Position numbers and translations under genes: made by a program. Below are positions 10,559-55,151 of a stretch of 64,000 bases of DNA, piece by piece. Location of the stretch: the NCBI GenBank assembly GCA_018970445.1, contig JAGWWF010000008.1, positions 62,001 through 126,000 on the forward strand, read 5' to 3'. A model generated the notes under the pieces. That model searched no databases. It saw only the letters and a program-made list of their open reading frames with translations, and was not told the DNA's origin. Position 1 is the stretch's first letter. Each line of letters begins with the position of its first letter. This stretch comes from Alphaproteobacteria bacterium. GTDB lineage: Bacteria > Pseudomonadota > Alphaproteobacteria > Sphingomonadales > Sphingomonadaceae.

Positions 10559-10571
10559 GCATACGTATTCG
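10559..10571. promoter_or_regulatory. Candidate LacI-family operator upstream of pckA
   Basis: GCATACGTATTCG contains the perfect 8-bp palindrome ATACGTAT (10561-10568). The same core occurs twice in the intergenic region of the LacI-type regulator at 49.6 kb. It lies in the pckA/chvI divergent region, closer to pckA. Confidence 0.6.
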
Positions 10572-10669
10572 TCAAAAGCCCTGATGTCGTGCGGTGGGGC
10601 ATGGCTGCCATGCAGGCGGCGCAGGGGCGGCCCTTGCCAGCGCCGCGCACCCGTTCCACATAGGCCCGG

Positions 10670-11410
10670 ATGGACAACAGCGCCCAGACCGCCCCGACGA
10701 TCGCCCTGGTGGATGATGATCGCAACATCCTCACCTCGGTGTCGATCGCGCTTCAGGCCGAAGGCTTTGCCGTGCGGCTCTATTCCGATGGGGACAGCGC
10801 GCTGAAAGCCCTGCTCGACAATCTGCCCGATCTGGTGGTGCTGGACATCAAGATGCCGCGCATGGACGGGATGGATGTGCTGCGCCGCCTGCGCGAGAAA
10901 AGCCCGGTGCCGGTGATCTTCCTGACCAGCAAGGACACCGAGATCGACGAGGCGCTGGGCCTGGCCATGGGGGCCGATGATTATATCGGCAAGCCGTTCA
11001 GCCAGCGCCTGCTGATCGAACGCATCCGCGCCGTGCTGCGCCGCACCGCCAACCGCAAGGCCGCCGAGGAGGAACCCGGCCAGGCGGCCGCCGAACCCAT
11101 CGTGCGCGGCCGCCTGACCATGGACCCGGCCCGCCACCGGGTGATCTGGGATGGCGGCGATGGCCGGCGCGGCGATGTGGCATTGACCGTCACCGAATTC
11201 ATGATCCTGGAAACGCTTGCCAGCCGCCCCGGCTTCGTCAAATCGCGCGACCAGCTGATGGATGCCGCCTATTCCCACGATGTCTATGTCGATGATCGCA
11301 CCATCGATTCCCACATCAAGCGGCTGCGCAAGAAATTCCGCGTGGTCGATCACCAGTTCAAGTCGATCGAGACGCTCTATGGCGTCGGTTATCGTTTCAA
11401 CGAGGAATAG
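10670..11410 (+). CDS. chvI: Response regulator ChvI, OmpR family
   Basis: A 246-residue OmpR/PhoB-type response regulator. The receiver domain (about 1-125) has the acidic pair in LVDDD, phospho-acceptor D59 in [11 protein letters not shown] and the K of GKPF. The C-terminal winged helix (about 150-245) has the [15 protein letters not shown] recognition helix and ends GVGYRFNEE. The [19 protein letters not shown] stretch and the position next to ChvG and pckA identify it as ChvI, the acid/envelope-stress regulator of alphaproteobacteria. It starts the operon that continues through ChvG to HPr; the gap to chvG is 5 nt. Confidence 0.95.
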
Positions 11411-11415
11411 GCACG

Positions 11416-12945
11416 GTGGGCACCGAATCCGCGGTGCAGGAATGGCGGCGCGGGCTGGGCTTCGGCTCGCTCAGGGCGCGCATCTTTGCGGTCAATCTGC
11501 TGGCGGTGTGCGTGCTGGCGATCATGCTGCTCTATCTCGATACGGTGCGGGCCCGCCTGCTCGACGAACGCACCGATGCCCTGTCCAACGAAGCGGTGGC
11601 GATTGCCGGGCTGGCGGCCGATTTGCCGGCCGGGCTGGAGCGACTCAGCTTTGCCCGCGGCACCCGCATCCGGCTCTATGCCGGCGATGGCGGCCTGCTC
11701 ACCGACAATTGGCACGGCCCGGCCACAAGGCAATTCCGGATCGAGGACCCGGCCGCCTATTCCTGGCGGCGCGCATCGGCCAAGTTCATCGATCGGGCGC
11801 TGGAACAGGTGCAGGGCAACAGGGCGCTGCCGGTCTATGCCGAAGCCATGCCGGATCGCGCCGGCCAATGGCCGGAAGCGGCGCGGGCGCTGGCCACGGG
11901 GCGGCCGGCCACCCAGCTGCGCCGGGCGGTGGATGGCAGCTATATCGTCGGCGCGGCGGCGCCCGTGCCCGGCGTGGGCGTGGTGCATCTGACCGACAAT
12001 GCCGAAGACGTGTCGCGCGTGCTGCGGGCCGAACGCCTGACCAGTTTCTGGCTGCTGGCGTCGGTGGCGGCCATCACCTTCGGCCTGTCGCTGTATCTGG
12101 CCCGCACCATCGTGCGGCCGCTGCGGATGCTGGCCATCGCCGCCCACCGGGTGCGGCTGGGCCGCAGCCGCGAGGTGGTGGTGCCGCGCCTGCCCGACCG
12201 ACGCGACGAGATCGGCGCGCTGGCCCGCGCCCTGTCCGACATGTCGATCGCCCTGCGCCGCCAGATCGATGCCACCGAAGCCTTTGCCGCCGATGTGGCG
12301 CATGAACTGAAGAACCCGCTCGCCTCGCTGCGCTCCGCTGTCGACGTGCTCGACCGGGTCGAGCAGCCGGACCTGCGCGCGCAGTTGCTGGCGGTGATTC
12401 GCGACGACGTGGGCCGCATCGACCGGCTGATCACCGATATCGCCGATGCCAGCCGGCTGGATGCCGAACTGTCGCGCACCGGGTTCCAGCCCGTCGATCT
12501 GGCCCGGCTGTGCACCGGCCTGGTGACGGCCTATGGCGTTGCCGGCCCGCCGCGCGGCGTGACCATCACGCTGGACACGCCGCCGGCTGGCCTGCCCGAC
12601 ATCGAAGGCGACGCCGCCCGGCTGGCGCAGGTGCTGCGCAACCTGATCGACAATGCCATCAGCTTTTCGCCCGATGGAGGCCGTGTCACCCTGGGGCTGG
12701 CCACGGCCGGGGATCAGGTGGAGGTGACGGTGGCCGACCAGGGCCCCGGCGTGCCGGCAGCCAACCGCGCCGACATCTTCCGGCGATTCTATTCGGAACG
12801 CCCGGCAACCGAGGATTTCGGCCGCCATTCCGGGCTGGGCCTGTCGATTGCCGGGGCCATCGTGGCCGCGCACGGCGGCAGCATCCGGGTGGAGGATGCC
12901 GGCGGCGGCGGGGCGCTGTTCCGGGTTGGCCTGCCGGTGGCATGA
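11416..12945 (+). CDS. chvG: Sensor histidine kinase ChvG
   Basis: A 509-residue inner-membrane sensor kinase, partner of ChvI. It has TM1 at about residues 23-45, a periplasmic sensor region of about 160 residues, TM2 at about 208-230, and a HAMP linker. The phospho-acceptor is H296 in HELKNPLASLRSAVDVL, and the ATPase boxes are NLIDNAISFSPDGG, DQGPGVP and GLGLSIAGAIV. The start is GTG, 5 nt after the chvI stop. Its stop overlaps the ATG of the next gene (ATGA), so the kinase and the HprK/RapZ protein are translationally coupled. In rhizobia ChvG activity is restrained by periplasmic ExoR; no exoR is present here. Confidence 0.94.
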   Translation: MGTESAVQEWRRGLGFGSLRARIFAVNLLAVCVLAIMLLYLDTVRARLLDERTDALSNEAVAIAGLAADLPAGLERLSFARGTRIRLYAGDGGLLTDNWHGPATRQFRIEDPAAYSWRRASAKFIDRALEQVQGNRALPVYAEAMPDRAGQWPEAARALATGRPATQLRRAVDGSYIVGAAAPVPGVGVVHLTDNAEDVSRVLRAERLTSFWLLASVAAITFGLSLYLARTIVRPLRMLAIAAHRVRLGRSREVVVPRLPDRRDEIGALARALSDMSIALRRQIDATEAFAADVAHELKNPLASLRSAVDVLDRVEQPDLRAQLLAVIRDDVGRIDRLITDIADASRLDAELSRTGFQPVDLARLCTGLVTAYGVAGPPRGVTITLDTPPAGLPDIEGDAARLAQVLRNLIDNAISFSPDGGRVTLGLATAGDQVEVTVADQGPGVPAANRADIFRRFYSERPATEDFGRHSGLGLSIAGAIVAAHGGSIRVEDAGGGGALFRVGLPVA

Positions 12946-14318
12946 TGGCGGATGAAGGCGCCATTCCCGATACCATCCATGCCAGCGCCGTGGCCCGCGA
13001 TGGCCGCGCCGTGCTGTTGCTGGGGCCGGCGGGCAGCGGCAAATCCGATCTGGCGCTGCGGCTGGTGGCAGCCGGCTGGCAGCTGGTGGCCGATGATCGG
13101 GTGGTGCTGACCCGTGTGGGCGACCGGCTGCTGGCCAGCGCCCCGCCGCGGCTGGCTGGCCTGATCGAGGTGCGGGGGCTGGGCATCGTGCCCGAACCCA
13201 CCCACAATGCCATGGTGGCGCTGGCGCTGGATCTGGGCCGCCGGCCCGATCGGCTGCCGGCGGCGGACTGGATCGGCTGGCACGGTCTGCCGGTGCCGCT
13301 GCTGGCCTTTGAACCCTTTGGCGATTCCGCAGTGGAACGTGTGGCGCGGGCCTTGGCAAACGCCGGCCTGGATGGCAGCACAACCCCCGTGCAACCGATC
13401 CTGATCGTCACCGGCCTGTCGGGCGCCGGCAAATCCACCGTGCTCAAGGCACTGGAAGATGCCGGGCACGAAGTGGTCGACAATCTGCCCATCAGCCTGA
13501 TGGACGGGCTGCTGGCGGCCGCCGCGCCGCGCCCGATTGCGCTGGGCCTGGACAGCCGCACCCGCGCCTTTGATGCCAAGGCGCTGGCAGCGCGGGTGGC
13601 GGCGCTGCGCGATTGTGCCCGCGATGTGCGGCTGGTCTATCTGGATTGCGCCGATGACGTGCTGATCCGGCGCTTTTCCGAAACCCGCCGCCGCCACCCG
13701 CTGGCGCTCGACCGGCCGGCGATCGACGGCATAAGGGCCGAACGCGACCTGTTGGGCGGCCTGAAGCGCAGCGCCGATCTGGTGATCGATTCGACCGAGC
13801 TTTCCGTCACCGATCTGCGCGCCATCGTGACCGAACGCTTTGGCGGCGGCTTCTCGCCGGGGTTGACGGTGACGCTGATGAGCTTCGGCTTTGCCGCCGG
13901 CCTCCCGCGGGAGGCCGATCTGGTGTTCGACATGCGGTTTCTGGCCAATCCGCACTGGGATGCGGCGCTGCGCCCGCTCACCGGCGAGGATGCGGCCGTG
14001 GCCGCCTTCGTGGAGGCCGATCCGCTCTATGCCGGCACGCTCGACCGGATCGACGATCTGATCCGCAGCCTGCTGCCCGGCTATGCCCGCGAGGGCAAAT
14101 CCTATCTCACCATCGCCATCGGCTGCACCGGCGGCCGGCACCGCAGCGTGGCGGTGGCGCGGGCGCTGGCCGGGCGGCTGGCGGCGCATCTGGCCAACAG
14201 CGGGCAGACCGTGGCGCTGGTGCATCGGGATATCGCAAAACAGGCCGGCGATGCCGCCGTGGTGGCAGGCGCCCCATTGACAGACTCGGCCAAAGCGGGC
14301 GAGGCCAGCAGCCGATGA
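12942..14318 (+). CDS. HPr kinase domain fused in frame to RapZ
   Basis: A single uninterrupted frame of 458 codons covers two proteins that are normally separate. Residues about 12-145 are the short alphaproteobacterial HPr kinase (HprK C-terminal domain only): P-loop GPAGSGKS (28-35) and the HprK signature LIEVRGLGIV (74-83). Residues about 150-458 are RapZ (RNase adapter, formerly YvcJ/YhbJ): Walker A GLSGAGKS (158-165), the VDNLP motif, and the C-terminal GCTGGRHRSV (394-403). There is no stop or frame change between them. Separate translation of RapZ from an internal GTG at 13389 (codon 150) is formally possible, but I see no good Shine-Dalgarno there. HprK phosphorylates HPr on serine; RapZ controls hexosamine synthesis in enterobacteria. 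The neighbours EIIA and HPr are the expected HprK partners. Confidence 0.9.
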   Translation: MMADEGAIPDTIHASAVARDGRAVLLLGPAGSGKSDLALRLVAAGWQLVADDRVVLTRVGDRLLASAPPRLAGLIEVRGLGIVPEPTHNAMVALALDLGRRPDRLPAADWIGWHGLPVPLLAFEPFGDSAVERVARALANAGLDGSTTPVQPILIVTGLSGAGKSTVLKALEDAGHEVVDNLPISLMDGLLAAAAPRPIALGLDSRTRAFDAKALAARVAALRDCARDVRLVYLDCADDVLIRRFSETRRRHPLALDRPAIDGIRAERDLLGGLKRSADLVIDSTELSVTDLRAIVTERFGGGFSPGLTVTLMSFGFAAGLPREADLVFDMRFLANPHWDAALRPLTGEDAAVAAFVEADPLYAGTLDRIDDLIRSLLPGYAREGKSYLTIAIGCTGGRHRSVAVARALAGRLAAHLANSGQTVALVHRDIAKQAGDAAVVAGAPLTDSAKAGEASSR

Positions 14319-14716
14319 TCGGATTGGTACTGGTGACCCACGGCCAGCTGGCGGTGGAATTCAAGGCGGCGATGGAGCATGTCGTCGGCCCCCAGGCGTG
14401 CGTGGAAACCATCTGCATCGCCGCGGAGGATGACATGGAGCTGCGCCGCGCCGACATTGCAGCGGCGGTAAAGGCCTGCAACAGCGGCAAGGGCGTGATC
14501 ATCCTGACCGACATGTTCGGTGGCACCCCGTCCAACCTTGCCATCTCGCTGCTGGGCGCCCAGGTGGAGGTGATTGCCGGGGTCAATCTGCCGATGCTGA
14601 TCAAGCTGGCCAGCGTGCGCAAGACCGGCACGGTGGAAGCCGCCGTGCAGGCCGCCCAGGATGCCGGGCGCAAATATATCGCGGTGGCCAGCCGCATGCT
14701 GGGCGAAGCCGCTTGA
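14315..14716 (+). CDS. PTS EIIA component, mannose family (regulatory)
   Basis: A 133-residue EIIA of the mannose class. The phospho-accepting histidine is H9 in LVTHGQLA, and TDMFGGTPSNLA is the family signature. No EIIB, EIIC or EIID is present, so it is not a sugar transporter but the terminal phosphate acceptor of the alphaproteobacterial regulatory PTS, receiving phosphate from HPr-His. The start overlaps the hprK/rapZ stop (ATGA), and its own stop overlaps the HPr start. The full chvI-to-HPr run is therefore one translationally linked operon. Confidence 0.93.
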   Translation: MIGLVLVTHGQLAVEFKAAMEHVVGPQACVETICIAAEDDMELRRADIAAAVKACNSGKGVIILTDMFGGTPSNLAISLLGAQVEVIAGVNLPMLIKLASVRKTGTVEAAVQAAQDAGRKYIAVASRMLGEAA

Positions 14717-14991: not shown

Positions 14992-14993
14992 GG

Positions 14994-17276: not shown

Positions 17277-17288
17277 GGAGGATCACCC

Positions 17289-17654: not shown

Positions 17655-17677
17655 ACCACGCAGCCGACAAGCAATCA

Positions 17678-17711: not shown

Positions 17712-17741
17712 GCGTTCTTCATTCCCGAAACAGGCGTTTTC

Positions 17742-35660: not shown

Positions 35661-36261
35661 GCGCGGCGGCGGCGCGGGCGCGGGCGGTGATGGCGGGCCA
35701 ATCGCTTTCCCCCCGCTTGGCCAGCCAGCTGCCGCCCACGCAGACTACCGCTGGTTCGGCAAGCCAATCGGGCGCGCTGGCTTCGGTGATGCCGCCCGTG
35801 GGGCAAAAGCGCACGCCGCCAAACACAGCGGCCATGGCCTTCAGCGCCGGCAGGCCGCCATTGGCGGTGGCGGGAAAATATTTCAGCCTGGAAAAGCCCT
35901 GTTCCAGCGCGGCGATGATGTCGGTGGCGGTGGCGACACCGGGCAGGAACGGCACGCCGCTGGCCCGCGCCGCGCCGGCCAGCGTGGGCGTGAGGCCGGG
36001 CGAAACGACGAAGCGCGCGCCGGCCGCAACCGCCTGATCCAGATCCTGCGGTGACAGCACGGTGCCGGCCCCCACCACGGCCCCCGGCACTTCGGCCATC
36101 GCCCGGATGACATCCAGGGCCGCCGGCGTGCGCAGCGTTACCTCCAGCACGGGCAGCCCACCGGCCACCAGTGCCTGCGCCAACGGGCGGGCGTGGGCGA
36201 CATCATCCACCACCAGCACGGGGATGACGGGGGCAAGGCGCATGATGATGTCGATATTCAT
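35644..36261 (-). CDS. eda: KDPG/KHG aldolase
   Basis: A 205-residue class I aldolase cleaving 2-keto-3-deoxy-6-phosphogluconate to pyruvate and glyceraldehyde 3-phosphate, the last Entner-Doudoroff step. PVIPVLVVDD, the glutamate in LEVTLRTPAA and the Schiff-base lysine in FSRLKYFPA are all present. The start overlaps the glk stop (ATGA). It is the last gene of the alpha-glucan operon. edd, which would make its substrate, is not nearby. Confidence 0.96.
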   Translation of the reverse strand: MNIDIIMRLAPVIPVLVVDDVAHARPLAQALVAGGLPVLEVTLRTPAALDVIRAMAEVPGAVVGAGTVLSPQDLDQAVAAGARFVVSPGLTPTLAGAARASGVPFLPGVATATDIIAALEQGFSRLKYFPATANGGLPALKAMAAVFGGVRFCPTGGITEASAPDWLAEPAVVCVGGSWLAKRGESDWPAITARARAAAALNRAA

Positions 36262-38679: not shown

Positions 38680-39587
38680 GCCTTTTCCTTGAACAGGAAT
38701 TCGAGCGGCAATGCCAGCCTTGCCGACCAGCTGGCCTCATCATGGCCGCTGCCGGGAAAGACGCGGCTGGTCATGTCGCGCCCGGCCTGCCAGCCGGCAG
38801 CCTGCACGGCCCGGTCGGCCATGGCCTGAAATGGGGCATAATGCTGATCGAGGCCGCGATCGCCGTGATCAAGCCAGAGGCGGCGGCCAGCCGGCGGCCT
38901 CAGCCGCCCGCCGATCCAGCCGGAGATGGCCGATGCCACGGCGGCCGTCTCACCGGCGGCCGGATCGGACAGCGGCGCCAGGATCGGCCAGTGGGTGGAC
39001 AGGCAGGCCGCACCGCCAAACAGATCGGGTCGCTCCATGAGGGCATTGAGCGAGGCAAGGCCGCCCATCGAAGAGCCGGCAATCACCACCCGGCCGGGCA
39101 CCACCGGATGACGGGCACGCAGCAGCGGCAGCACGATATCGGCCAGCAGGCCGAGATAGGCCATCGAGCGAGACGGGCCGCCACCGGTCTGACTGAAGCG
39201 GGCGGCCAGAGGGGCTGGCAATCGCGCCAGCAGATCAGCCGGCACATAATCGCCCCAGCGCTGGGCACCACTGTTCCATACGCCTGCCACGATCATCGGT
39301 GGCAGTGTGGCTTTGGCCATACCGGCCATGATGGTTTCGGCCACCCGCCAAGTGACACCGCCATAGGCCGAAGCGGGTTCAAACAGATTCTGGCCATCGT
39401 GCATCAGCAGCAGCGGCAGCGGCCGGCCATCATCCGCATCGGGCGGCACCCACACATCGACATGGCGCGGCATCAGGCCCGGCGCGCCGACATGGGCATG
39501 GCGGGTGAACTGAACGGCTTCGCCGGCCCGGCCCGGCCAGGCCAGCAGCGCCGGGGCCGCCGCCAGCAAGGCGCGCCGGCTGATCAC
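38676..39587 (-). CDS. Exported esterase, alpha/beta hydrolase (EstD1/Fes-like)
   Basis: A 303-residue putative esterase. The N-terminus MISRRALLAAAPALLAWPG carries an RR pair and hydrophobic stretch, so it may be a Tat signal. HDGQNLFEP (63-71), nucleophile S173 in GSSMGG, and H282 in GSGHDEASW define the esterase-D-like fold that includes feruloyl and acetyl esterases and enterochelin esterase. Within a glucan operon it may deacylate oligosaccharides. Being exported, it is unlikely to replace the missing cytosolic 6-phosphogluconolactonase. The start is GTG inside the GH97 stop (GTGA). Confidence 0.83.
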   Translation of the reverse strand: MISRRALLAAAPALLAWPGRAGEAVQFTRHAHVGAPGLMPRHVDVWVPPDADDGRPLPLLLMHDGQNLFEPASAYGGVTWRVAETIMAGMAKATLPPMIVAGVWNSGAQRWGDYVPADLLARLPAPLAARFSQTGGGPSRSMAYLGLLADIVLPLLRARHPVVPGRVVIAGSSMGGLASLNALMERPDLFGGAACLSTHWPILAPLSDPAAGETAAVASAISGWIGGRLRPPAGRRLWLDHGDRGLDQHYAPFQAMADRAVQAAGWQAGRDMTSRVFPGSGHDEASWSARLALPLEFLFKEKA

Positions 39588-41629: not shown

Positions 41630-43242
41630 GGGGCAATGAATCCGGAAAAAGGCGGCAACAGACGGGCACTGGCGCCGCCATGGCTGGCAAGCGGTGGGCC
41701 GATGGCAAGATCAACCGCGATCGGCTGGGCACCAAGGTTGAAGGCACACACAAGGGTGACCGTGCCCAGCGTGCGCCGCAGGATCAGCAGATCGCCTTGC
41801 GCCACCGCCGTTTCAACGCCGCCATGGCGCAGGGCGGGCTGCTGCCGCCGCAGGGCCATCAACGCCCGTGTCCAGTGCAGCATCGATCGGGGATCGGCCA
41901 GCTGCCGGTCCACCGCGTGCAGGGCATGATCGCCGCCCAGCGGCAGCCAGGGACGGCCGGCGGAAAATCCGGCAGACGGGCGATCGGCCGCCCACGGCAT
42001 CGGCGTGCGGGCACCATCGCGACCCAGGGTGAGCGGCCAGTTGGCAATGGCTTCGGGATCCTGCAGGTCGGCAAAGCCGATTTCGGCCTGGGTCAGCCCC
42101 AGTTCCTCGCCATAATAGAGGAAGATGTTGCCGCGCAGCGCCACCAGCAGCAGCATGATCAGCCGGGCATAATCATCATGGCCACACGCCCCGTGCCAGC
42201 GGCTGGCGGCCCGCGGCGCGTCGTGATTGGAAAAGGCCCAGCTGGGCCAACCGGTGCCCGGCGTTTGCGGCCATTGCGCCAGCGCGTCGGCCACCAGCCG
42301 GGGCGTGAGCGCATCGGCATAGAGGAAGTTGAAGCCATAGGCCGAATTGAGCCGCGCCGCGCCGGCGGTGAAGGCATGCATTTCGCCAATGGCATCATCG
42401 CCGCCCACTTCGGCAACGGTGAAGCGGTCGGGAAAGCCGTTCACCACGGCGGCCACCCGTTCCAGAAAGGCCGGAATATCCGGATGCGACATGTTGTGGA
42501 TGCGCCGCTGGAAATCAAAGGGCCGCGTGCGCTTGTGGTTGCCGCCGGCCGGCGGATTGTCGCGCAGCAGCGGATCATGCATGGAAAAATTCAGCGCATC
42601 GATGCGAAAGCCATCGACGCCGCGATCAAGCCAGAACCGCGCCACATCCAGGATGGCATCCTGCACCGCCGGGTTGTGCAGGTTCAGATCAGGCTGCGAA
42701 TTCAGGAAGTTGTGCAGATAATATTGCTGGCGGCGCGCATCCCAAGTCCAGGCCGGGCCGCCGAACACCGATTGCCAGTTGGATGGCGGTGTGCCGTCGG
42801 GCCGGGGATCGGCCCACACATACCAATCCGCGCGCGGGTTGCAGCGGCTCTGCCGGCTTTCGCAGAACCAGGCATGACAATCCGATGTGTGGCTCCACAC
42901 CTGATCGATGATGATCTTCAGGTCCAGATCGTGCGCGCGCGCCACCAGCGCATCGAAATCCGCCAACGTGCCGAAGATCGGATCAACGCCGCGATAATCG
43001 GCGACGTCATAACCGAAATCGCGCATCGGCGACGTGAAGAATGGCGACAGCCAGATGGCATCGACATTCAGCGCCGCAACATGATCAAGCCGGGCGGTGA
43101 TGCCAGGCAGGTCGCCAATGCCGTCGCCATTGCTGTCGAGAAAGCTGCGCGGATAAATCTGGTAGATGCTGGCACCCAGCCACCAGGGGGTGGCCGCACC
43201 CGCTTGCGCATCGGGACAGGGTTGCGCGGCATCAGGCATCAT
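41620..43242 (-). CDS. GH13 alpha-glucosidase (oligo-alpha-glucosidase type)
   Basis: A 540-residue GH13 enzyme without a signal peptide, hence probably cytosolic. YQIYPRSFLDSNGDGIGDLPGI is the usual start of the barrel. The nucleophile aspartate is in GFRIDALNF, the acid/base glutamate in FTVAEVGGDD and the third acid in SNHDAPR. This pattern is that of alpha-glucosidases acting on maltose and short oligosaccharides. The start (ATGA overlap with the amylase gene) was chosen over the longer open frame. Confidence 0.93.
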   Translation of the reverse strand: MMPDAAQPCPDAQAGAATPWWLGASIYQIYPRSFLDSNGDGIGDLPGITARLDHVAALNVDAIWLSPFFTSPMRDFGYDVADYRGVDPIFGTLADFDALVARAHDLDLKIIIDQVWSHTSDCHAWFCESRQSRCNPRADWYVWADPRPDGTPPSNWQSVFGGPAWTWDARRQQYYLHNFLNSQPDLNLHNPAVQDAILDVARFWLDRGVDGFRIDALNFSMHDPLLRDNPPAGGNHKRTRPFDFQRRIHNMSHPDIPAFLERVAAVVNGFPDRFTVAEVGGDDAIGEMHAFTAGAARLNSAYGFNFLYADALTPRLVADALAQWPQTPGTGWPSWAFSNHDAPRAASRWHGACGHDDYARLIMLLLVALRGNIFLYYGEELGLTQAEIGFADLQDPEAIANWPLTLGRDGARTPMPWAADRPSAGFSAGRPWLPLGGDHALHAVDRQLADPRSMLHWTRALMALRRQQPALRHGGVETAVAQGDLLILRRTLGTVTLVCAFNLGAQPIAVDLAIGPPLASHGGASARLLPPFSGFIAPCA

Positions 43243-45095
43243 GGGGCACCGGCTTCGCTGCTGCACACCGCCACGCCCAGCGGCGGCAGGCTGATCGCCA
43301 GCGTGCCGGGGGCCGCCGCGCTGGCCGGGCAATGGCCCAGAAGGCTGGTCCAGCGCTGGCTGGCGGGATCGATCATCACATTGGCCTGCACGGGAAATTT
43401 CGCAGTGTTGAGCAGCACCAGCGTTTCCCCCGGCCGGCCGGAAATCTGGCGGGAAAAGGCGAACAGGCCGGGGCCATCGCCGGCGGCGCGCACACGGGTT
43501 TCGCCGTGGCGCAGGCGCGGATCGGCGACGCGCACGGCGGCCATCGCCTTCATGGTGCGATAGAAGGGATGCGCCGGATCGAAACTGGCCACGCCGTGGC
43601 CGGCGCTGGTGCCCAGCCGCGGCGTGGCGCGATATTCGGCCACCTGGCTGGCAAACAGCGGCTGGCGGGCGCCCTGATCATTGCCGCTGCCGACAAAGCC
43701 CTGTTCATCACCGGCATAAAGCGTTGGCACACCGCGAGAAAACAGCATCAGCGCATGGCCGAGCAGGGTGCGCGCCGCCAGTTCGTCCGCACCGGCGTTC
43801 GGATTGGCGCGGCGCACGAACCAGGCAAAACGCCCCTTGTCGTGGTTGCCCAGAAAGCTGGGGTTGGCCGCCGCCGTGGCGGTGCCGCCGGCATAGAGCA
43901 CATCATCGGCGAACAGCCGCGCCAGTGTGGCGGTGGGCGCCGTGCCGGCAATGGTTTCGATCGCAGCGGCAGACAGAGCAAAATCAAGCACATGCGGCAG
44001 CCGGTCGACATGGGTGTGGCGGGCCAGCCGGCCCACGTCCAGATCGTCGGTGGCCACTTCGCCGAACATGTGGAAATTGGGGATGCCGGCGGCGCGGGCG
44101 CGGGCCAGGATCGCCGGCACAAAGCCTTGCCAGAATTGGGGATTCACGTGCTGGGCGGTATCGATGCGATAGCCATCGATGCCCAGCTGGTCGATCCAGT
44201 CGCCATAAATGTCGATCATGCCGGCCAGCACGCGCGGATGTTCGGTGGCCAGGTCATCCAGGCTGGAAAAATCACCGAACTGGCTGGATTCGTTACGAAA
44301 TACCGTCTCGCCCCGGTTGTGGTAAAAGATGGGATCGTTCAGCCAGGCCGGGGTCTTGGCGCGGTCTTCCCCGGCCGGGACGAAGGGGGTGTAGGCAAAA
44401 TCCGGCCGGGTCAGCCGGGCCCAGTTTTCGGGCGTGGCGACATGGTCACCGGCAAAGCCGGGGTTGATTTCGGAGCCCGAAACCCCGCCCCGGCGGCTGT
44501 AGGGATAATCGGCGCGGTTGCGATAAGTGCATGGATTGCCTTGACATTCCCTGTACTGAATCACGTCGGCGGTGTGGTTGGTGACGATATCCAGATAGAC
44601 TTTCATGCCACGGGCATGGGCGGCATCGACCAGCCGCTTCAGATCGGCGTTGCTGCCCAGATGCGGATCGACGCGGGTGAAATCGGTGATCCAGTACCCA
44701 TGATAACCGGCCGATTCCTGGCCCGGCAGGCCTTGCACCGGCTTGTTGGCGAACACCGGGGCCAGCCAGATGGCCGTGGCACCAAGCCCCTGGATATAAT
44801 CAAGTTTCTGGATGATTCCGGCCAGATCGCCGCCGTTGTAAAAGCCCTTGGCGGTGGGATCAAAGCCGGTTTGCAGACGCCCGCCGGCAAGGCCGCCGCG
44901 ATCATTGGCGGGATCGCCATTGGCAAAGCGGTCGGGCAGCAGGAAGTAGATGAGTTCATCCTGCGGCGGCCGGGCGCGCAGGGTGGCCAGCGTGGCCGCA
45001 TCGGGGGCGGCGGTGGCGGCAACCGGCGCGGCGGTGGCGGCGCTGCCGGCCACGGTGACCGCCAGCAGCGCAACGGTGGCCAGAATTGGCAGCAT
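43239..45095 (-). CDS. Exported GH13 alpha-amylase
   Basis: A 618-residue alpha-amylase-family enzyme with a signal peptide (about 1-22) and an Ala-rich linker before the barrel. IYFLLPDRFANGD, DIVTNHTADV, nucleophile region DGYRIDTAQH, acid/base FGEVATDD and FLGNHDKGRF are visible. The C-terminal beta domain follows at about 520. It probably acts in the periplasm or at the outer membrane on glucans. The start ATG follows the halogenase stop by 1 nt. Confidence 0.93.
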   Translation of the reverse strand: MLPILATVALLAVTVAGSAATAAPVAATAAPDAATLATLRARPPQDELIYFLLPDRFANGDPANDRGGLAGGRLQTGFDPTAKGFYNGGDLAGIIQKLDYIQGLGATAIWLAPVFANKPVQGLPGQESAGYHGYWITDFTRVDPHLGSNADLKRLVDAAHARGMKVYLDIVTNHTADVIQYRECQGNPCTYRNRADYPYSRRGGVSGSEINPGFAGDHVATPENWARLTRPDFAYTPFVPAGEDRAKTPAWLNDPIFYHNRGETVFRNESSQFGDFSSLDDLATEHPRVLAGMIDIYGDWIDQLGIDGYRIDTAQHVNPQFWQGFVPAILARARAAGIPNFHMFGEVATDDLDVGRLARHTHVDRLPHVLDFALSAAAIETIAGTAPTATLARLFADDVLYAGGTATAAANPSFLGNHDKGRFAWFVRRANPNAGADELAARTLLGHALMLFSRGVPTLYAGDEQGFVGSGNDQGARQPLFASQVAEYRATPRLGTSAGHGVASFDPAHPFYRTMKAMAAVRVADPRLRHGETRVRAAGDGPGLFAFSRQISGRPGETLVLLNTAKFPVQANVMIDPASQRWTSLLGHCPASAAAPGTLAISLPPLGVAVCSSEAGAP

Positions 45096-45096
45096 G

Positions 45097-46605
45097 TCAA
45101 AATTCCCTTGCAGCAGCGTGGCGGGCCAGCCAGTCGCCATGGCCGGGCAGCGCGGCCACCCCGGCGGCGATGGCCCGATCCAGGCTGGCCATGAACCCGG
45201 CCAGATCATCGCGGTCCAGCCCGGCGGTGAGCGGATGGGCCGATTGCGGCACCCAGCCCTGGCCGATCAGCACCTGCGCCCAGGCCGGTTCGGTGAACAG
45301 TTCATCATGATCGCGGCGGATGCGGCCGCTGGCCCGGAACAGCGCCATGCGGGCGGCCAGATCGGGCGGCACGACCATGGCCTGCACCTGCCGCCAGAAC
45401 GGCGTATCGGCGCGCGCCGTCGCCTTGTAGTGCAGGATGATGAAATCGCGGATCCATTCCATCTCGCACGCGGCCTGGCGATTGGCTTCGGCGGCCAGCA
45501 CCGGCAGCATGGCCGCATCGGCCGGCAACAGGGCCAGCAGCCGGGCGATGCCCGACTGGATGAGGTGGATGGACGTGGATTCCAGCGGCTCCAGAAAGCC
45601 TGCCGCCAGCCCCAGCCCCAGACAGTTGCCGATCCACACCCGGTCGCGCCGGCCGGCCTGAAACCGCAAGGTGCGTGGTTCGGCCAGCGCCGGGCCATCC
45701 AGATTGGCCATCAGCATCGCGGTCGCCTCGTCCTCGCCCAGATGGGCCGATGAAAACACATGGCCATTGCCGATGCGGTGTTGCAGCGGGATGCGCCATT
45801 GCCAGCCGGCGGTGCGCGCGGTGCTGCGGGTATAGGGCGCCGGCGCCGCGCCGGGCGCGTGTGCGCACGGCACCGCCACCGCGCGGTCGCACGGCAGCCA
45901 GTGCGACCAGTCGTGCCAGCCGCTGCCCAGCGCCCCGCCCAGCAGCAGGCTGCGAAAGCCGGAGCAATCGATGAACAGGTCGCCTTCGATGCGGCGGCCA
46001 TCGTCCAGCCGAAGGGCGATGATGGTCTCGCCCCGGGTTTCCACGTCGGCGATCCGGCCTTCGTGGCGGACAACGCCGCGCGCCTGCGCAAAGCGCGCCA
46101 AAACGGCGGCATAAAGGCCGGCATCGAAATGATAGGCCCACACCAGCGGCGGCAGCGTGGCATCGCCGCCGAACGGGGCGAACCGCCCCTGCAGCGCGGC
46201 GCGTTCGTTCAGGCTGTAGTGGCCAAGATCGGCAGCCACCCCGGCGGCGCGGGCGGCGGCCCACCAGTGGTGGAACGGCAACAGCCCCAGCCCACGCCCG
46301 ACATCGCCAAAGGCGTGCATGTAGCGCTGGCCACGTTGCCCCCAATCGACAAATTCGATGCCCAGTTTCAGCGTGCCCTGCGTGGCGGCCAGGAAATCGG
46401 CTTCATCCAGCCCCAGCCCGGCGTTGAACAGGCGGATCTGCGGGATGGTGGCTTCGCCCACCCCCACCGTGCCGATCGCATCGGATTCCACCAGCACGAT
46501 GCGCCAGCCCGGCCCGCAAAAGCGCGCCAGGGCCGCCGCCGCCATCCAGCCGGCGGTGCCACCGCCGGCGATGACGATCGTGCGCAAGGGAGCCGCGGTC
46601 ATCAT
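45097..46605 (-). CDS. Flavin-dependent tryptophan-halogenase-like enzyme 1
   Basis: A 502-residue member of the tryptophan halogenase family. FAD-binding GGGTAGW (14-20) and GVGEATIP, catalytic lysine K80 in GTLKLGIEF, the family signature W268-x-W270-x-I-P, and the catalytic glutamate E342 in PLESTS are all present, so it should be catalytically competent. Homologues sit beside TonB receptors and glycosidases in Caulobacter and Xanthomonas, and several brominate indole; the natural substrate in such loci is not known. It starts the run of glycosidase genes and is separated from the receptor by a large hairpin. Confidence 0.9.
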   Translation of the reverse strand: MMTAAPLRTIVIAGGGTAGWMAAAALARFCGPGWRIVLVESDAIGTVGVGEATIPQIRLFNAGLGLDEADFLAATQGTLKLGIEFVDWGQRGQRYMHAFGDVGRGLGLLPFHHWWAAARAAGVAADLGHYSLNERAALQGRFAPFGGDATLPPLVWAYHFDAGLYAAVLARFAQARGVVRHEGRIADVETRGETIIALRLDDGRRIEGDLFIDCSGFRSLLLGGALGSGWHDWSHWLPCDRAVAVPCAHAPGAAPAPYTRSTARTAGWQWRIPLQHRIGNGHVFSSAHLGEDEATAMLMANLDGPALAEPRTLRFQAGRRDRVWIGNCLGLGLAAGFLEPLESTSIHLIQSGIARLLALLPADAAMLPVLAAEANRQAACEMEWIRDFIILHYKATARADTPFWRQVQAMVVPPDLAARMALFRASGRIRRDHDELFTEPAWAQVLIGQGWVPQSAHPLTAGLDRDDLAGFMASLDRAIAAGVAALPGHGDWLARHAAAREF

Positions 46606-49431: not shown

Positions 49432-49560
49432 CGGATCGTCCCCCCAGATTGGTTCACCGCCCCGGCCCGTTTTGACGGCCCTTCATGCCAGCGGTGCTGT
49501 TCTGCCCACCTGTTGTGACGCGCCCGCCACAATTGGCGCAATATCGCCGCACGCCCGGAC

Positions 49561-49568
49561 ATACGTAT
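49561..49568. promoter_or_regulatory. Candidate LacI-family operator O1
   Basis: A perfect ATACGTAT palindrome in the receptor/regulator intergenic region, 51 bp centre-to-centre from the second site. Its right flank, TTCA, resembles the pckA site. Confidence 0.6.
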
Positions 49569-49572
49569 TCAC

Positions 49573-49588
49573 GTGGCAGAAATGTCAC
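49573..49588. promoter_or_regulatory. GTGGC-6nt-GTCAC motif, matching TonB receptor 1 upstream
   Basis: GTGGCAGAAATGTCAC lies between the two ATACGTAT sites. It matches 12 of 16 positions, with the same spacing, to GTGGCGTGAATGCCAC at 8851-8866 upstream of the other TonB receptor. It may be a second regulator's site. Confidence 0.4.
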
Positions 49589-49609
49589 GCTAGGCTGCCG
49601 CGTTCAAAA

Positions 49610-49621
49610 GCATACGTATGC
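49610..49621. promoter_or_regulatory. Candidate LacI-family operator O2
   Basis: GCATACGTATGC is a perfect 12-bp palindrome with ATACGTAT at its core, 36 nt before the chosen LacI-type regulator start. An autoregulatory site is the simplest reading. Confidence 0.7.
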
Positions 49622-49656
49622 AGATGCGACAGACAGGGGGAGGGGGAACCGCGCCG

Positions 49657-50670
49657 ATGGCACGGGTGACCAGTTTTGACATTGCCGCACTGGCCGGGGT
49701 GTCGCAGCCAACGGTGTCGCGCGCGCTGTCGGGCAACCGCGCGGTGTCGGCCGAAACCCGCGCCAGGGTGTTTGCTGCGGCCGCCAAGCTGAACTACACG
49801 GTGGACAAGAACGCATCCAACCTGCGCCGCCAGGCCACCCGCACGCTGGCCCTGCTGTTCTTCGAGGATCCGTCCCCGGGCGAAACCCAGATCAACCCGT
49901 TCTTCCTGTCGATGCTGGGGGCGATCACCAAGCGCTGCGCCACCGCCGGCTATGATCTGTTGATCAGTTTCCAGCAATTGTCGGGCAACTGGCATGTGGA
50001 TTATGAGGATGCGCGGCGGGCCGATGCGCTGATCCTGCTGGGTTATGGCGATTATCTGGAATATCGGCCGCGGCTGGAACAATTGTTGCGCCAGGGCACG
50101 CATTTCGTGCGCTGGGGCAGTGTGCAGCCCGGCCAGCTGGGCACCACCATCGGCAGCGACAATCGCGGCGGCGGGCTGGCGGCCACCCGGCATCTGATCG
50201 AACGCGGTCATCGCCGCATCGGCTTCATCGGCACGGCCGGCGATGGTTCGCCGGAGTTCCAGGATCGCTGCGCCGGCTGGCGCGACGCGCTGGCCCAGGC
50301 CGGGCTGGCCGCCGATCCGGCCCTGATGCGCGATGCCACCAGTTGCGAGGCCGATGGCCAGGCGGCGGTGCACAGCCTGATCGCGGCGGACGCCGATTTC
50401 GATGCGATCTTCTGCGCCAGCGACCTGATCGCCATCGGCGCGATGCGGGCGCTGGCGCAGGCCGGGCGGCGGGTGCCGGCCGATGTGGCGGTGGTGGGCT
50501 TTGACGATCAGCCCGCCGCCAGTCTGACCAGCCCGCCGTTGACCACGGTGGCGCAGGATGCCCGCCGCGCCGGCGAAACGCTGGTGGACATGGCGCTGGC
50601 GCAATTGCGCGGCGAGGCGGCCGAGGCGGTGGCGCTGCCGGCGCGGCTGGTGATCAGGGGATCAAGCTAG
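49657..50670 (+). CDS. LacI-family transcriptional regulator
   Basis: A 337-residue LacI/GalR-type repressor. The N-terminal HTH and hinge (about 1-60) read SFDIAALAGVSQPTVSRALSG then DKNASNLRRQATRTL; the rest is a periplasmic-binding-protein-like sugar sensor with the closing VAVVGFDDQPAASLTSPPLTTV. The start is the ATG giving MARVTSF, after a GGGGGAGGGGG Shine-Dalgarno; an in-frame ATG at 49618 is less likely since it lies inside the operator. It is divergent from the maltodextrin receptor and convergent with halogenase 2 (17-nt overlap). Confidence 0.93.
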   Translation: MARVTSFDIAALAGVSQPTVSRALSGNRAVSAETRARVFAAAAKLNYTVDKNASNLRRQATRTLALLFFEDPSPGETQINPFFLSMLGAITKRCATAGYDLLISFQQLSGNWHVDYEDARRADALILLGYGDYLEYRPRLEQLLRQGTHFVRWGSVQPGQLGTTIGSDNRGGGLAATRHLIERGHRRIGFIGTAGDGSPEFQDRCAGWRDALAQAGLAADPALMRDATSCEADGQAAVHSLIAADADFDAIFCASDLIAIGAMRALAQAGRRVPADVAVVGFDDQPAASLTSPPLTTVAQDARRAGETLVDMALAQLRGEAAEAVALPARLVIRGSS

Positions 50671-52180
50671 CGGCGCAGTGGCGGGCGATGAAGGCGGCGT
50701 GGCCGGGCATTTCGGCCGCCGCCTCGCGCATCACGCGGGCCAGCCCGGCCAGCAGGCGCGGCGCATCCACCTGGGGGCTGCGGGCATCGGCCAGCGGATC
50801 GGGGCGCTGCGGCAGGTTGAACTGGCCCACATGCACCGCCAGCCAGCTGGCATTCAGGAAGAGTTCGGGGCCATCGGACACCAGCCGGCCAAAGCTGGCG
50901 AAATGGGCGATCCTGTGGGCCAGCGTATCGGGGATGGCCATGGCGGCGGTGTGGCGCCACAGCGGCTCGTCACGCGTACCCAGATGATAATGCAGGATGA
51001 GGAAATCGCGGATGCGTTCCCATTCGGTGGCGGTGACGCGGTTGTATTCATCGCGCACATGGGCTTCCATCGCGCGGGTGGGCCACAGCGCCAGCAACCG
51101 CATCAGGCCGGACTGGACAAGGTGGAGCGAGGTGGATTCCAGCGGCTCCATGAAGCCGGCAGCCAGCCCGATGGCAACGACATTGTGGGCCCAGGCCTGC
51201 GCGCGGCGGCCGGTGGTGAAGCGCAGCAGGCGCGGGGTGGCCAGCGCCGGGCCATCCAGATTGGCCAGCAGGATGGCGGCGGCTTCATCCTCGGCCATGA
51301 AGGCCGATGAAAACACATGGCCATTGCCGATCCGGTGTTGCAGCGGGATGCGCCATTGCCAGCCGGCACCGTGCGCGGTGGAGCGGGTGTAGGGCGTGAA
51401 GCCGGCGCCATCGCTGCCGCCGGCATGGGCGCAGGGCACCGCCAGCGCGCGATCGCAGGGCAGCCAGTGCGTCCAGTCGATGAAGGGGGTGGCCAGCGCC
51501 TCGCCCAGCAGCAGGCTGCGAAAGCCGGAACAATCGATCCAGAATTCGGCCGCCACCGTGCGGCCATCGGCCAGGGTGATGGCGGTGACATCGCCGGTCT
51601 CGCCATGGCGGGCGACGCCGGTGATGCGGCCTTCGTGGCGGGTGACGCCCAGGCCCTCGGCCAGGCGGCGCAGGCTTTGGGCATAAAGGCCGGCATCGAA
51701 ATGATAGGCATAATCAAAGGTGGACTGCACCAGCCGGCGATCCGGCGAGGGCGGGGCAAAGCGGTTGGCGCGCGCCGCCGCCCAGGCCATGGAATAATCA
51801 TCCAGCGGGGTGGGATCGCCGGCCAGCCGCTGCCGGTTCCACCAGTGGTGCAGGGCGACACTGTCGAAATCGGCGCCAAAGGTGCCGAACGGGTGGAAAT
51901 AACGGTGGCCGGCGCGGCCCCAGCCGACAAATTCGATGCCCAGCTTGAAGCTGCCCTGCGTGGCGCGGACGAAATCGGCCTCGTTCAGGCCGAGCAGCTG
52001 GTTGAACAGCTTGATCGGCGGGATGGTGGCTTCGCCCACCCCGACGGTGCCGATGTCTTCGGATTCGACCAGCTGGATGGCCACCGCGCCGCCCAGGGTG
52101 CGGGCCAGCGCGGCGGCCGCCATCCAGCCGGCCGTACCGCCGCCCACGATGCAGACAGAACGGACGGGCTGGTGGTTCAC
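50654..52180 (-). CDS. Flavin-dependent tryptophan-halogenase-like enzyme 2
   Basis: A 508-residue paralogue of halogenase 1, with the same motifs: GGGTAGW (13-19), GVGEATIP, catalytic K79 in GSFKLGIEF, W274-x-W276-x-I-P, and E348 in PLESTS. Large blocks are near identical (GWQWRIPLQHRIGNGHVFSS). The start is GTG in the antiporter stop (GTGA), so it is co-translated with a CPA2 antiporter. The longer open frame upstream is a shadow of that gene. Substrate unknown. Confidence 0.9.
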   Translation of the reverse strand: MNHQPVRSVCIVGGGTAGWMAAAALARTLGGAVAIQLVESEDIGTVGVGEATIPPIKLFNQLLGLNEADFVRATQGSFKLGIEFVGWGRAGHRYFHPFGTFGADFDSVALHHWWNRQRLAGDPTPLDDYSMAWAAARANRFAPPSPDRRLVQSTFDYAYHFDAGLYAQSLRRLAEGLGVTRHEGRITGVARHGETGDVTAITLADGRTVAAEFWIDCSGFRSLLLGEALATPFIDWTHWLPCDRALAVPCAHAGGSDGAGFTPYTRSTAHGAGWQWRIPLQHRIGNGHVFSSAFMAEDEAAAILLANLDGPALATPRLLRFTTGRRAQAWAHNVVAIGLAAGFMEPLESTSLHLVQSGLMRLLALWPTRAMEAHVRDEYNRVTATEWERIRDFLILHYHLGTRDEPLWRHTAAMAIPDTLAHRIAHFASFGRLVSDGPELFLNASWLAVHVGQFNLPQRPDPLADARSPQVDAPRLLAGLARVMREAAAEMPGHAAFIARHCAASLIP

Positions 52181-53454
52181 GCCTCTACCCCCTGCGGGAT
52201 GACATGGCCGGTGCGCGGCAGCAGCCATTTCAGCAGCGGCCCGGTCATGATCGTGGTGGCCACCGCCATCACCACCAGCATGGTGAACACCGCCGGCGGC
52301 AGCACGCCCAGATCGCGGCCGATGTTGAGCACGATCAATTCCATCAGCGCCCGCGTGTTCATCAGGCTGCCCAGCACGGCCGCCTGCGCCGGCGTGTAGC
52401 CGCTGGCCCGCGCGGCGGCATAGACCGGGATGATCTTGGCCGCGATCGCCAGCACCAGGATCAGCGCCAGCCAGGCCAGATCGGCCAGCCCAAGCCCCAG
52501 CAGGTTGGTGCGCAAGCCGGTATAGGTGAAGAACACCGGCAGGAAGAACACCAGCACGAACCCGCCCACCTGCCCCTTCCACGCCGCCACGAAGCCGGTG
52601 TGGCGGTGCATGATCAGCCCGGCCAGAAAGCCGCCGAAGATGGCGAAGATGCCCAGCTTGTAGGTGCAGATGGCCAGGCCGAACACCAGCGCCAGCATGG
52701 CGGCCATCAGCGTGGGATCGATGCGGCCAGCCACCGGCGGCAACGCCGCCACCAGCCGGCGCGCCAGCGGGGCCAGCACCAGCCGCGCGATGATCAGCAG
52801 CGCCGCGATGCCGGCCAGTTGCAGCGCCAGATCAGCGCCGGAAAAGCGCGCCGCCGCCAGCGCCGAAATGCTGGCCAGCAGCACCCAGCCGGCCACATCG
52901 TTCACCGCCGCCGCCGCAATCGCCACCACGCCCAGCGGGCGATCGGTGAGGCCGAACTGCGCCAGGATGCGGCCCAGGATGGGCAGGGCGGTGATCGCCA
53001 TGGCATTGCCGCAGAACAGGGCATAGAGCGTGGGATCGATGCCCGGCGCCAGCGCGGCGGCGCTGAACCAGCCAAAGCCCAGCCCGGCCAGCAGCGGCAC
53101 TGCCACCGATGCGCCGGCAATCAGCGCCGCGCCCTTGCGGTGTTGCGGGGTGTCCAGATGCGCAAATTCGAATTCCATGCCGATCTGGAACATCAGCAGG
53201 GTCAGCCCGATCTGGCTGATGATGGTGACGGCCGGTGCCGGCGTCGCCCCGAACAATTGCAGCGACAGGGCCGGGGCCAGCGCGCCCAGCAGCGACGGGC
53301 CCAGCAGCAGGCCGGCGATGATTTCGCCCACCGCGCCGGGCTGGCCCAGCCGGCGCGCCACGATGTTCAGCGTGCGCGCCGCAGCAATCATGATGATCAG
53401 CTGCACCAGCACGCTGAACAGCAGATCTTCGCTGGAATGGACGCTGCTTGCCAT
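52177..53454 (-). CDS. Cation:proton antiporter, CPA2 family
   Basis: A 425-residue polytopic protein with about 12-13 membrane segments. ARRLGQPGAVGEIIAGLLLGPSLLG, QIGLTLLMFQIGMEFEFAHL and the aspartate in AVNDVAGWVLLAS are typical of KefB/NapA-like exchangers. There is no C-terminal RCK/TrkA domain. The start could be the GTG at 53460 or the ATG used here. It lies between the SSS symporter gene and halogenase 2 in one minus-strand operon; sodium recycling for the symporter is a reasonable job. Confidence 0.87.
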   Translation of the reverse strand: MASSVHSSEDLLFSVLVQLIIMIAAARTLNIVARRLGQPGAVGEIIAGLLLGPSLLGALAPALSLQLFGATPAPAVTIISQIGLTLLMFQIGMEFEFAHLDTPQHRKGAALIAGASVAVPLLAGLGFGWFSAAALAPGIDPTLYALFCGNAMAITALPILGRILAQFGLTDRPLGVVAIAAAAVNDVAGWVLLASISALAAARFSGADLALQLAGIAALLIIARLVLAPLARRLVAALPPVAGRIDPTLMAAMLALVFGLAICTYKLGIFAIFGGFLAGLIMHRHTGFVAAWKGQVGGFVLVFFLPVFFTYTGLRTNLLGLGLADLAWLALILVLAIAAKIIPVYAAARASGYTPAQAAVLGSLMNTRALMELIVLNIGRDLGVLPPAVFTMLVVMAVATTIMTGPLLKWLLPRTGHVIPQGVEA

Positions 53455-53475
53455 GGCCACAGTTTTACGGGCGGA

Positions 53476-55071
53476 TCAGGCAAAGCGCCAGACGATGACG
53501 GCGGTGGCCGCCAGCAGCCCGCCCGCCAGCACGCGATAATTGGCCCACGGCGGCGTGCCGGCCAGCGCTGCGGTTTCGGCATCATAGACGCCGCGGTTCC
53601 ACAACAGGCCTTCGGTCTTTTCCGGCGGCGGCGGCGGCGTGCCGAGCGAGCCCACCACCATCGCGGCAGCCGAGGCGGCCAGCAGGATGGGCGCCACATG
53701 CAGGAAGTGCAGCTGCACACTGCCCGTCACATTGATGGCAATGAACAGGCCGATGCCAAGCACCAGCCCGGTGATGATGGCCGCCGCCGCGCCCTGCGCA
53801 TTGGCGCGCGGCCAGAACAGGCCCAGCAGGAACACCGCCACGATCGGCGGGCTGGTATAGCTCAATGCCCCCTGCAGATATTGCCACACGCTGCCGAAGC
53901 GTTCGATCTGCGGCGCGATGACAACCGCGATCACCAGAAACACCAGGGTTGCCAGCCGCCCGGTGCGCACCAGCGCCGCACCATCCAGATCGGGATTCCA
54001 GTAGCGGGCAAAATCCATGGTGAACAAGGTGGCGGCCGAATTGAAGGTGGAGGCGGTGGCCGACATGATCGCCGCCAGGAACCCCGCCACCACCAGCCCC
54101 AGAAGGCCGGTGGGCAGCAGATCGAACATCAAGGTGGGATAGACAAGATCGGGCGTCTTCAGCGCCGGATAGAGCAGGATGGCGCAGGTGCCGGGCAGCA
54201 CCATCAGCCACAGCACCGGCAGTTTCAGCAGGCCGGCAAACAGGCTGCCCCAGCGGCCATGATCCAGATTGCGGGCACTGAGCACGCGCTGCACCATGAA
54301 CTGGTTGGTGCACCAGAAATAGAAGCCCAGGATCGGCACGCCGGTGATCAGCCCGGTCCACGGCACCGATGGATCATCGACGGGGCGGATCAGCGAAAAT
54401 TTCGCCGCCGGGACGGTTGCGACAATGCGATCCCAGCCGCCCACCGCATCGAACGCCGCGATCGACAGCACCACGGCGGCGCCCAGCAGGATCACCGCCT
54501 GTAGCACTTCGGTGTAGAGCACCGCCTTCAGCCCGCCGACGATGGTATAAATGCCGGCCAGCACCGCCAGGCCGGCGATCATCTGCCACAGCGGCACGCC
54601 GGGGAAGATCAGCGACAGCATCAGCGCGCCGCCATAGAGCGTCGCGGCCTTGTCCACGAACACCGACAGGAAGATGGTGAGGCCGGAGAAATAGGCCCGC
54701 GTGCCGCGGCTGAAGCGGCGTTCGAGGAATTCCGGCATGGTATAGACCTGCGCGCGCAGGATGAACGGCAGGAAGAAGATGCAGAAGAACACCAGGATGA
54801 CACTGGCCATCCATTCATAATTATAGACCGCGATGCCATTGGCATAGGCAGCGCCCGCCAGCCCGATCAGCGTGGCCGACGAGATGTTGGAGGCCAGCAG
54901 CGACAGGCCGATCACCGGCCACGAACTGTCGCGGCTGGCCAGAAAGAAATCGCTGCCGCTGGCCTGTTTGCGCCCGGCCCACAGGCCCAGGGCGATCACC
55001 ACCAGCGCATAGGCGGCCACAACGGCCCAATCCAGCCCGGCCAGGCCGCGCGCAAACACATCCGTGCCCAT
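53476..55071 (-). CDS. Sodium:solute symporter (SSS/SGLT family)
   Basis: A 531-residue inner-membrane symporter with about 13-14 segments. SDFFLASRDSSWPVIGLSLLASNISS, GLKAVLYTEVLQAVILL and FYFWCTNQFMVQRVLSA resemble glucose/galactose-type SSS proteins (vSGLT-like). In this locus it would bring in glucose made by the periplasmic enzymes, feeding glk. Other SSS members carry amino acids or iodide, so the substrate is not certain. GGAG lies 5 nt before the ATG. An operator-like site lies about 67 nt upstream. Confidence 0.88.
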   Translation of the reverse strand: MGTDVFARGLAGLDWAVVAAYALVVIALGLWAGRKQASGSDFFLASRDSSWPVIGLSLLASNISSATLIGLAGAAYANGIAVYNYEWMASVILVFFCIFFLPFILRAQVYTMPEFLERRFSRGTRAYFSGLTIFLSVFVDKAATLYGGALMLSLIFPGVPLWQMIAGLAVLAGIYTIVGGLKAVLYTEVLQAVILLGAAVVLSIAAFDAVGGWDRIVATVPAAKFSLIRPVDDPSVPWTGLITGVPILGFYFWCTNQFMVQRVLSARNLDHGRWGSLFAGLLKLPVLWLMVLPGTCAILLYPALKTPDLVYPTLMFDLLPTGLLGLVVAGFLAAIMSATASTFNSAATLFTMDFARYWNPDLDGAALVRTGRLATLVFLVIAVVIAPQIERFGSVWQYLQGALSYTSPPIVAVFLLGLFWPRANAQGAAAAIITGLVLGIGLFIAINVTGSVQLHFLHVAPILLAASAAAMVVGSLGTPPPPPEKTEGLLWNRGVYDAETAALAGTPPWANYRVLAGGLLAATAVIVWRFA

Positions 55072-55137
55072 GATGGCTCCATCCCCCTGGGCCAAGGCCT
55101 GCCATGGCAGCGCCCGCCGGGCAATGGCGACGGCGGC

Positions 55138-55151
55138 GCGTATTCGTATGC
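55138..55151. promoter_or_regulatory. Operator-like site upstream of the SSS symporter
   Basis: GCGTATTCGTATGC; its reverse complement starts GCATACG, as the pckA and LacI sites do, and CGTATTCG is shared with the pckA site. It is a weaker palindrome than the others, so binding is less certain. Confidence 0.45.

Follow-up and report, generated by a model that had tools for sequence, protein, structure and literature searches.

LacI-family regulators of central metabolism (PckR, GapR and GluR) have been described in three other alphaproteobacterial orders, in a study whose main text never mentions Sphingomonadales (PMC4052901). As described there, PckR occurs only in Rhizobiales, has pckA and Entner–Doudoroff genes among its predicted targets, is a predicted activator of pckA and is mostly encoded away from the genes that it controls (PMC4052901). 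GapR of the Rhodobacteraceae, the predicted targets of which include pckA, and CceR, which is said to sense gluconate-6P, control genes of glycolysis, the Entner–Doudoroff pathway and gluconeogenesis; the GapR regulon is large, its members are not clustered, and its motif is 20 bp long (PMC4052901; PMC5507952). GluR of Caulobacter is reported from Caulobacteraceae alone, regulates zwf–edd–glk and pykA, has a 20-bp motif and ppdK rather than pckA among its listed targets, and in the view of its authors descends from local glucoside regulators (PMC4052901). In the maltose and maltodextrin loci of Xanthomonas and Caulobacter, genes for a TonB receptor, glucosidases, a sugar transporter and a repressor are clustered, and the portion of the account available describes no pckA target (PMC1790865).

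The locus analysed here lies in a 64,000-nucleotide stretch of the genome of a freshwater Sphingomonadaceae bacterium (contig JAGWWF010000008.1, positions 62,001–126,000; referred to as the window). Compared by description, it resembles the PckR, GapR, CceR and GluR systems in the predicted control of central carbon genes by a LacI-family protein, with pckA also a predicted target of PckR and GapR, and it resembles the maltose loci in its clustering of receptor, glucosidase, transporter and repressor genes. Unlike that of PckR, the regulator gene is inside a glucan locus and the pckA site is in the promoter spacer, which is the geometry of a repressor; in contrast to the GapR and CceR regulons, the window genome has just three target places, and the core is shorter; and GluR differs in the motif, target and taxonomic range given above. 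The regulator is LacI-type and this is thus not a HexR regulon, HexR being an RpiR-family protein (PMC5507952). The central-metabolism targets would be pckA in the window, with zwf, glk and eda only if these belong to the receptor operon; in a relative from another genus (G026) they would be pckA, ppc and pyk. What appears to be new is the apparent recruitment of pckA by a LacI regulator from a glucan locus, through a site placed as for a repressor. In the open-access literature searched we found no LacI-family control of pckA in a sphingomonad, and no description of a LacI regulator for ATACGTAT or, among the titles listed, for CATACGTATG; the local part of the regulon may be in RegPrecise already. 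For a large group of bacteria from water and soil, the analysis names a likely regulator of glucan use, the predicted binding site lets the regulon be read from genomes, and glucan use and PEP carboxykinase look wired to one switch.

The regulator gene (P0001; 49657–50670, plus strand) encodes a protein that exceeds the cut-offs for both the N-terminal helix-turn-helix (PF00356) and the periplasmic-binding-protein-like sensor domain (Peripla_BP_3, PF13377), the combination that defines the LacI/GalR family. No named NCBIfam model, equivalog models included, was above cut-off for this protein, and PckR, GapR, GluR and CceR are absent among the 19 models listed. Orthologues occur in relatives; the closest named species belong to Sandarakinorhabdus (81–82% identical), two metagenome-assembled genomes are at 83–86%, and we call the GTDB genus Sandarakinorhabdus on the identity of this protein. 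The recognition helix, SQPTVSRAL, is invariant across nine aligned orthologues with identity down to 55%.

Divergent from the regulator is a TonB-dependent receptor gene (P0003; 46678–49431, minus strand; TIGR01782, 568 bits), behind which genes for a Trp_halogenase-family protein, an alpha-amylase, GH13 and GH97 enzymes and an esterase, together with zwf, glk and eda, follow on the same strand with short gaps or overlaps (35644–46605). The receptor and the genes behind it probably form a single operon, and the gene content suggests that the substrate is maltodextrin or another alpha-glucan. On the other side of the regulator lie a Trp_halogenase-family gene, a CPA2-type antiporter gene, an SSS symporter gene and a MATE gene. 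Trp_halogenase-family genes (45097–46605 and 50654–52582) thereby flank the receptor–regulator pair, and one also follows the receptor in G058, a member of another family of the order.

The initial annotation had reported a family of palindromes at pckA, in the gap between the LacI-type and receptor genes and upstream of the SSS gene, and these were confirmed at exact positions, against shuffled sequence and by a genome-wide search. The core ATACGTAT occurs in the window at 10561–10568, 49561–49568 and 49612–49619, a number reached by none of 100 dinucleotide shuffles (mean 0.01), and the genome of 3,034,855 bases holds no copies beyond these three, one upstream of pckA and two in the LacI/receptor gap; the reversed control pattern has zero copies across the same genome. 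A fourth site, GCATACGAATAC, one base off the core, lies on the minus strand at 55140–55151, before the SSS gene. With the start of pckA placed near 10493 and that of the LacI-type gene at 49657, as judged from upstream sequence and relatives, each of the four sites falls between genes.

In the LacI/receptor gap, the first operator (ACATACGTATTC, 49559–49570) retains its core in all eight aligned members of the genus, and the second (GCATACGTATGC, 49610–49621) is present in three of the eight. The position given earlier for the second site, 49610, is where the longer form GCATACGTAT begins; the core itself starts at 49612. The two sites are 51 bp apart, a distance that had been proposed to permit looping; with the second site in only three of eight genomes the spacing is not conserved, and looping was ruled out as a conserved feature. 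Adjoining the first operator, at 49572–49589, is an imperfect inverted repeat (CGTGGCA, four bases, TGTCACG), much of which is kept in the eight aligned genus members and which is possibly the site of another regulator.

The scan for GCATACGTAT with up to two mismatches, which the initial annotation had recommended, showed no enrichment in the window (15 found against 25 expected), and the 12-base version with up to two mismatches exceeds its control only modestly across the whole genome (18 and 22 on the two strands versus 11 and 10). Across relatives, the 8-mer taken alone and its control occur at similar frequencies. Loose-motif counts were therefore dropped as evidence, the number in the window falling below the shuffled expectation, and the case depends on the position and conservation of exact sites rather than on their number. 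Of the genome places found with two mismatches allowed, two that have a single mismatch were read in context and set aside as background: C4:31283, which lies between frames, and C37:2371, which falls within a frame of 243 amino acids.

A scan of named genomes yielded 80 loci with the LacI-type gene, nearly all from sphingomonads by record title, and a receptor homologue is present in 74 of them. In 67 of the 80 loci an exact core lies no more than 350 bp before the LacI orthologue. Such upstream DNA, 27,686 bp in all, contains 70 copies, versus 17 in the remaining 1,448,334 bp of the same loci. In 6 of the 13 misses the core is 890–945 bp upstream of the gene (L117, L122, L131, L133, L151 and L152), in three it is elsewhere in the locus (L107, L120 and L145), one has just 36 bp of upstream DNA (L083), and in three the exact core is absent from the locus (L106, L139 and L149). 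A CG-centred palindrome at the regulator's own promoter, a trait of the LacI/GalR family, is thus seen here as well at the level of sequence. One of these loci, L120 (62% identical), comes from a metagenome-assembled genome labelled Candidatus Planktophila lacus, an actinobacterium; its LacI locus is sphingomonad-like and is probably a mis-binned contig.

The pckA gene (P0002; 8892–10511, minus strand; PF01293 and TIGR00224) encodes an ATP-type PEP carboxykinase (PEPCK) with a true start probably near 10493. Its presumed core promoter (10547–10575, minus strand), inferred from conserved boxes, consists of TTGACG at 10570–10575, a 17-bp spacer and TATGCC at 10547–10552, and the operator (GAATACGTATGC as read towards pckA, 10559–10570) lies within the spacer. 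A protein bound between the −35 and −10 boxes keeps RNA polymerase off, and because the palindrome sits exactly between the two, the bound protein should repress pckA. The neighbouring genes (10670–14716) encode a divergent ChvI-like response regulator, then a sensor kinase, HPr-kinase/RapZ-like domains and a PTS EIIA domain.

Comparison of the pckA site among relatives, another check that had been proposed, bore out its conservation alongside the LacI-type gene. We found pckA in 50 of 60 genomes, that of the window included, and read 49 upstream stretches. The genus set comprises 24 genomes, of which 22 have a readable pckA promoter; left out of the count are G018 (LacI orthologue at 73%, no pckA found) and G012 (LacI match at 51%, 5′ end of pckA missing). 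The arrangement TTGACG-17-TATG precedes pckA in all 22. In every one of the nine genomes with a LacI orthologue the palindrome is in the 17-bp spacer, which begins AATACGTATGC, and in none of the 13 without an orthologue, in which the best LacI match is missing or a distant paralogue at most 40% identical, does the spacer contain the core. Three genomes of the genus set (G005, G016 and G023) are 75–81% complete, and the absence of the LacI gene from G005 is thus weaker. The comparison amounts to a natural experiment, in which the boxes of this promoter stay constant across 22 genomes and its spacer contains an operator only alongside the regulator gene.

A simple Fisher probability for this association is 2 × 10−6, a value that treats related genomes as independent. 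On a weakly resolved pckA tree of the 22 genomes, LacI presence and the operator each change seven times, giving seven independent pairs on all branches and four on well-supported branches; all four of the latter are concordant, and with a sign-test P of 0.125 from four pairs the tree test does not reach significance by itself. Adding nine further genomes of the family gives six supported pairs, of which four are concordant, none is opposed and two show no difference. The promoter surroundings of G001, G003 and G011 match those of G010 and G002 but carry AACCGGGATGCG in place of AATACGTATGCG, as if the operator had decayed after loss of the regulator, presumably in that direction. The pattern TTGACNNATACGTATNC matches 4 of 397 genomes of the family, all Sandarakinorhabdus, and the four places are the pckA promoters of G009, G010, G002 and the window. 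That draw took in 11 of the 24 genus genomes, and the four matches are the 4 of the 11 that have a LacI orthologue; confined as it is to one genus, the spacer arrangement was rejected as a family-wide rule.

The SSS-family sodium:solute symporter gene (P0004; 53476–55071, minus strand; PF00474 and TIGR00813) is preceded by exact GCATACGAATAC in all seven genus orthologues with upstream DNA (G000, which is the window genome, G014, G009, G015, G002, G010 and G013). In five aligned SSS promoters the site forms a conserved block amid variable bases. G013 also has a second SSS copy, at 77%, which is cut by a contig end.

The search for exact cores covered 16 relatives whose best LacI match was 51% or higher; 35 loci were passed through a rough gene finder, and the neighbours of 11, selected for operator-like flanks, were looked up. 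In G026 the exact core is in the pckA leader, 143 bp ahead of the matched portion of ppc (L185:2497, where the upstream start of the frame is uncertain), 66 bp before pyk (L186:2527) and at a receptor gene; the first three make a PEP-node regulon possible. Among the selected loci, cores occur at glk and a receptor gene in G023, at receptor genes in G025 and G012, and at two MFS genes in G018, one of them near edd, with the site approximately 430 bp upstream of edd and inside the MFS frame as drawn by the rough gene finder. Two loci (L178 of G012 and L200 of G015) have no recognizable carbohydrate genes beside the core. In G058 (LacI 55%), pairs of exact cores 29 bp apart precede the LacI gene and GH97, and another such pair, with a third core, lies between the receptor and GH13 genes; the pairs occupy three intergenic stretches of the glucan cluster (L219:12942–12978, L220:6192–6228 and L220:10682–10718). 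Genome-wide the core is no commoner in G058 than its control (30 versus 31), and no pckA was found in this genome. In three other genomes from outside the genus (G025, G027 and G029) a palindrome with one mismatch lies downstream of the likely pckA promoter, and the same is true of G032, although the latter has no LacI orthologue (best match 39%). G024, likewise from outside the genus, has a LacI orthologue at 67%, yet no pckA site, and G030, also from outside, lacks the site and has a LacI match (51%) that contains a stop. Palindromes resembling GTGCAT-N4-ATGCAC stand upstream of pckA but after its likely promoter in G025 and G032 and, less perfect, in G027 and G029 (L204, L205, L081 and L082); because G032 is without a LacI orthologue, a second regulator may read them.

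Sequence comparison establishes where the sites lie, that they are conserved and that the pckA site occurs together with the regulator, and from this we infer, as the simplest form of control, one repressor that is released by sugar. The protein encoded at 49657–50670 would read CATACGTAT-type palindromes at its own gene and the divergent glucan-receptor genes, at the SSS symporter gene and at pckA, where it would shut out RNA polymerase; a ligand, presumably glucan-derived, would release it. As glucan sugars enter, uptake and breakdown, the Entner–Doudoroff genes, the symporter and PEPCK would then rise together, on the supposition of a common sign. We consider this reading moderately probable. 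The earlier proposal of a single regulator for the glucan locus, the SSS gene and pckA is supported in its comparative part, the pckA site following the LacI gene; binding at the three places is predicted. That the palindromes are unrelated look-alikes finds some encouragement in loose matches at or near background and in the unenriched 8-mer, but chance is contradicted by the joint conservation at pckA, at SSS (7/7) and at the LacI gene (67/80) and is extremely improbable. It is also improbable that a different transcription factor reads the palindrome, such as one lost with the locus or the ChvI-like regulator encoded divergently from pckA: the one-mismatch palindrome of G032, the best LacI match of which is just 39%, would suit such a factor, but the exact core is tied to the upstream region of the LacI orthologue itself, the pckA site keeps step with that orthologue in the genus, and the part of the frames scanned between 35 and 57 kb contains no further regulator gene.

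The sign of control at the uptake genes allows two readings. In the genus of the window, a conserved ATATTGC block lies approximately 20 bp from the operator centre, so that the operator would sit on the −35 box, which fits repression. Against a common repressor, the spacing between operator and presumed receptor promoter in other genera would also suit an activator, G024 keeps the regulator without a pckA site, and it would be odd physiology to repress a gluconeogenic enzyme in the absence of sugar, even if PPDK provides a second route. A dual regulator is a tentative alternative, possible if somewhat doubtful: its sugar-replete, DNA-bound form would activate uptake beside the −35 box and repress pckA from the spacer, moving uptake and gluconeogenesis in opposite directions. 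Such a scheme is physiologically sensible, and dual regulation has been described for both PckR and FruR/Cra (PMC4052901). It also draws on 41 non-redundant receptor-directed sites (of 48) that have fixed downstream bases (T at +10 in 38 of the 41, T at +8 in 29 and A at +35 in 27); the operator would then lie approximately 46 bp before the start. Most of these 41 sites, however, share one orthologous intergenic region, and the fixed spacing may be descent; in the genus of the window the ATATTGC block, by which the operator would sit on the −35 box, also counts against this scheme.

The apparent joint control of PEPCK and sugar uptake raises the question of the direction in which PEPCK runs in these bacteria. 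The window genome has PPDK over cut-off, as do 20 of 23 scanned genomes of the genus, and PEPCK as the sole gluconeogenic entry is not supported. Strong PEP carboxylase (PEPC) matches accompany the pckA operator in G013, G016 and G023 (919.5 and 875.9 bits, and a 493-bit part), which equally counts against PEPCK as the only anaplerotic enzyme as a rule. PEPCK induced along with glucan use could serve anaplerosis, and this stays a possibility because relatives with strong PEPC carry the same operator. More broadly, the glucan-locus LacI regulator might have been drawn more than once in sphingomonads to the PEP–pyruvate–oxaloacetate node, by way of the pckA promoter spacer in Sandarakinorhabdus and of separate sites at pckA, ppc and pyk in G026, with a carboxylating, anaplerotic PEPCK where a strong PEPC match is absent; we think this extension unlikely. 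If true, PEPCK in the species of the window would run in the reverse of its textbook role, induced with glucan use. In the window genome no pyruvate carboxylase is over cut-off, and the PF00311 match is weak (49 bits, over the Pfam cut-off), in a diverged, PEPC-like frame of 912 amino acids (L225:27–2765, contig C34). The canonical PEPC motif is TAHPTE; this frame reads TAHPTF, and it may not encode an active PEPC.
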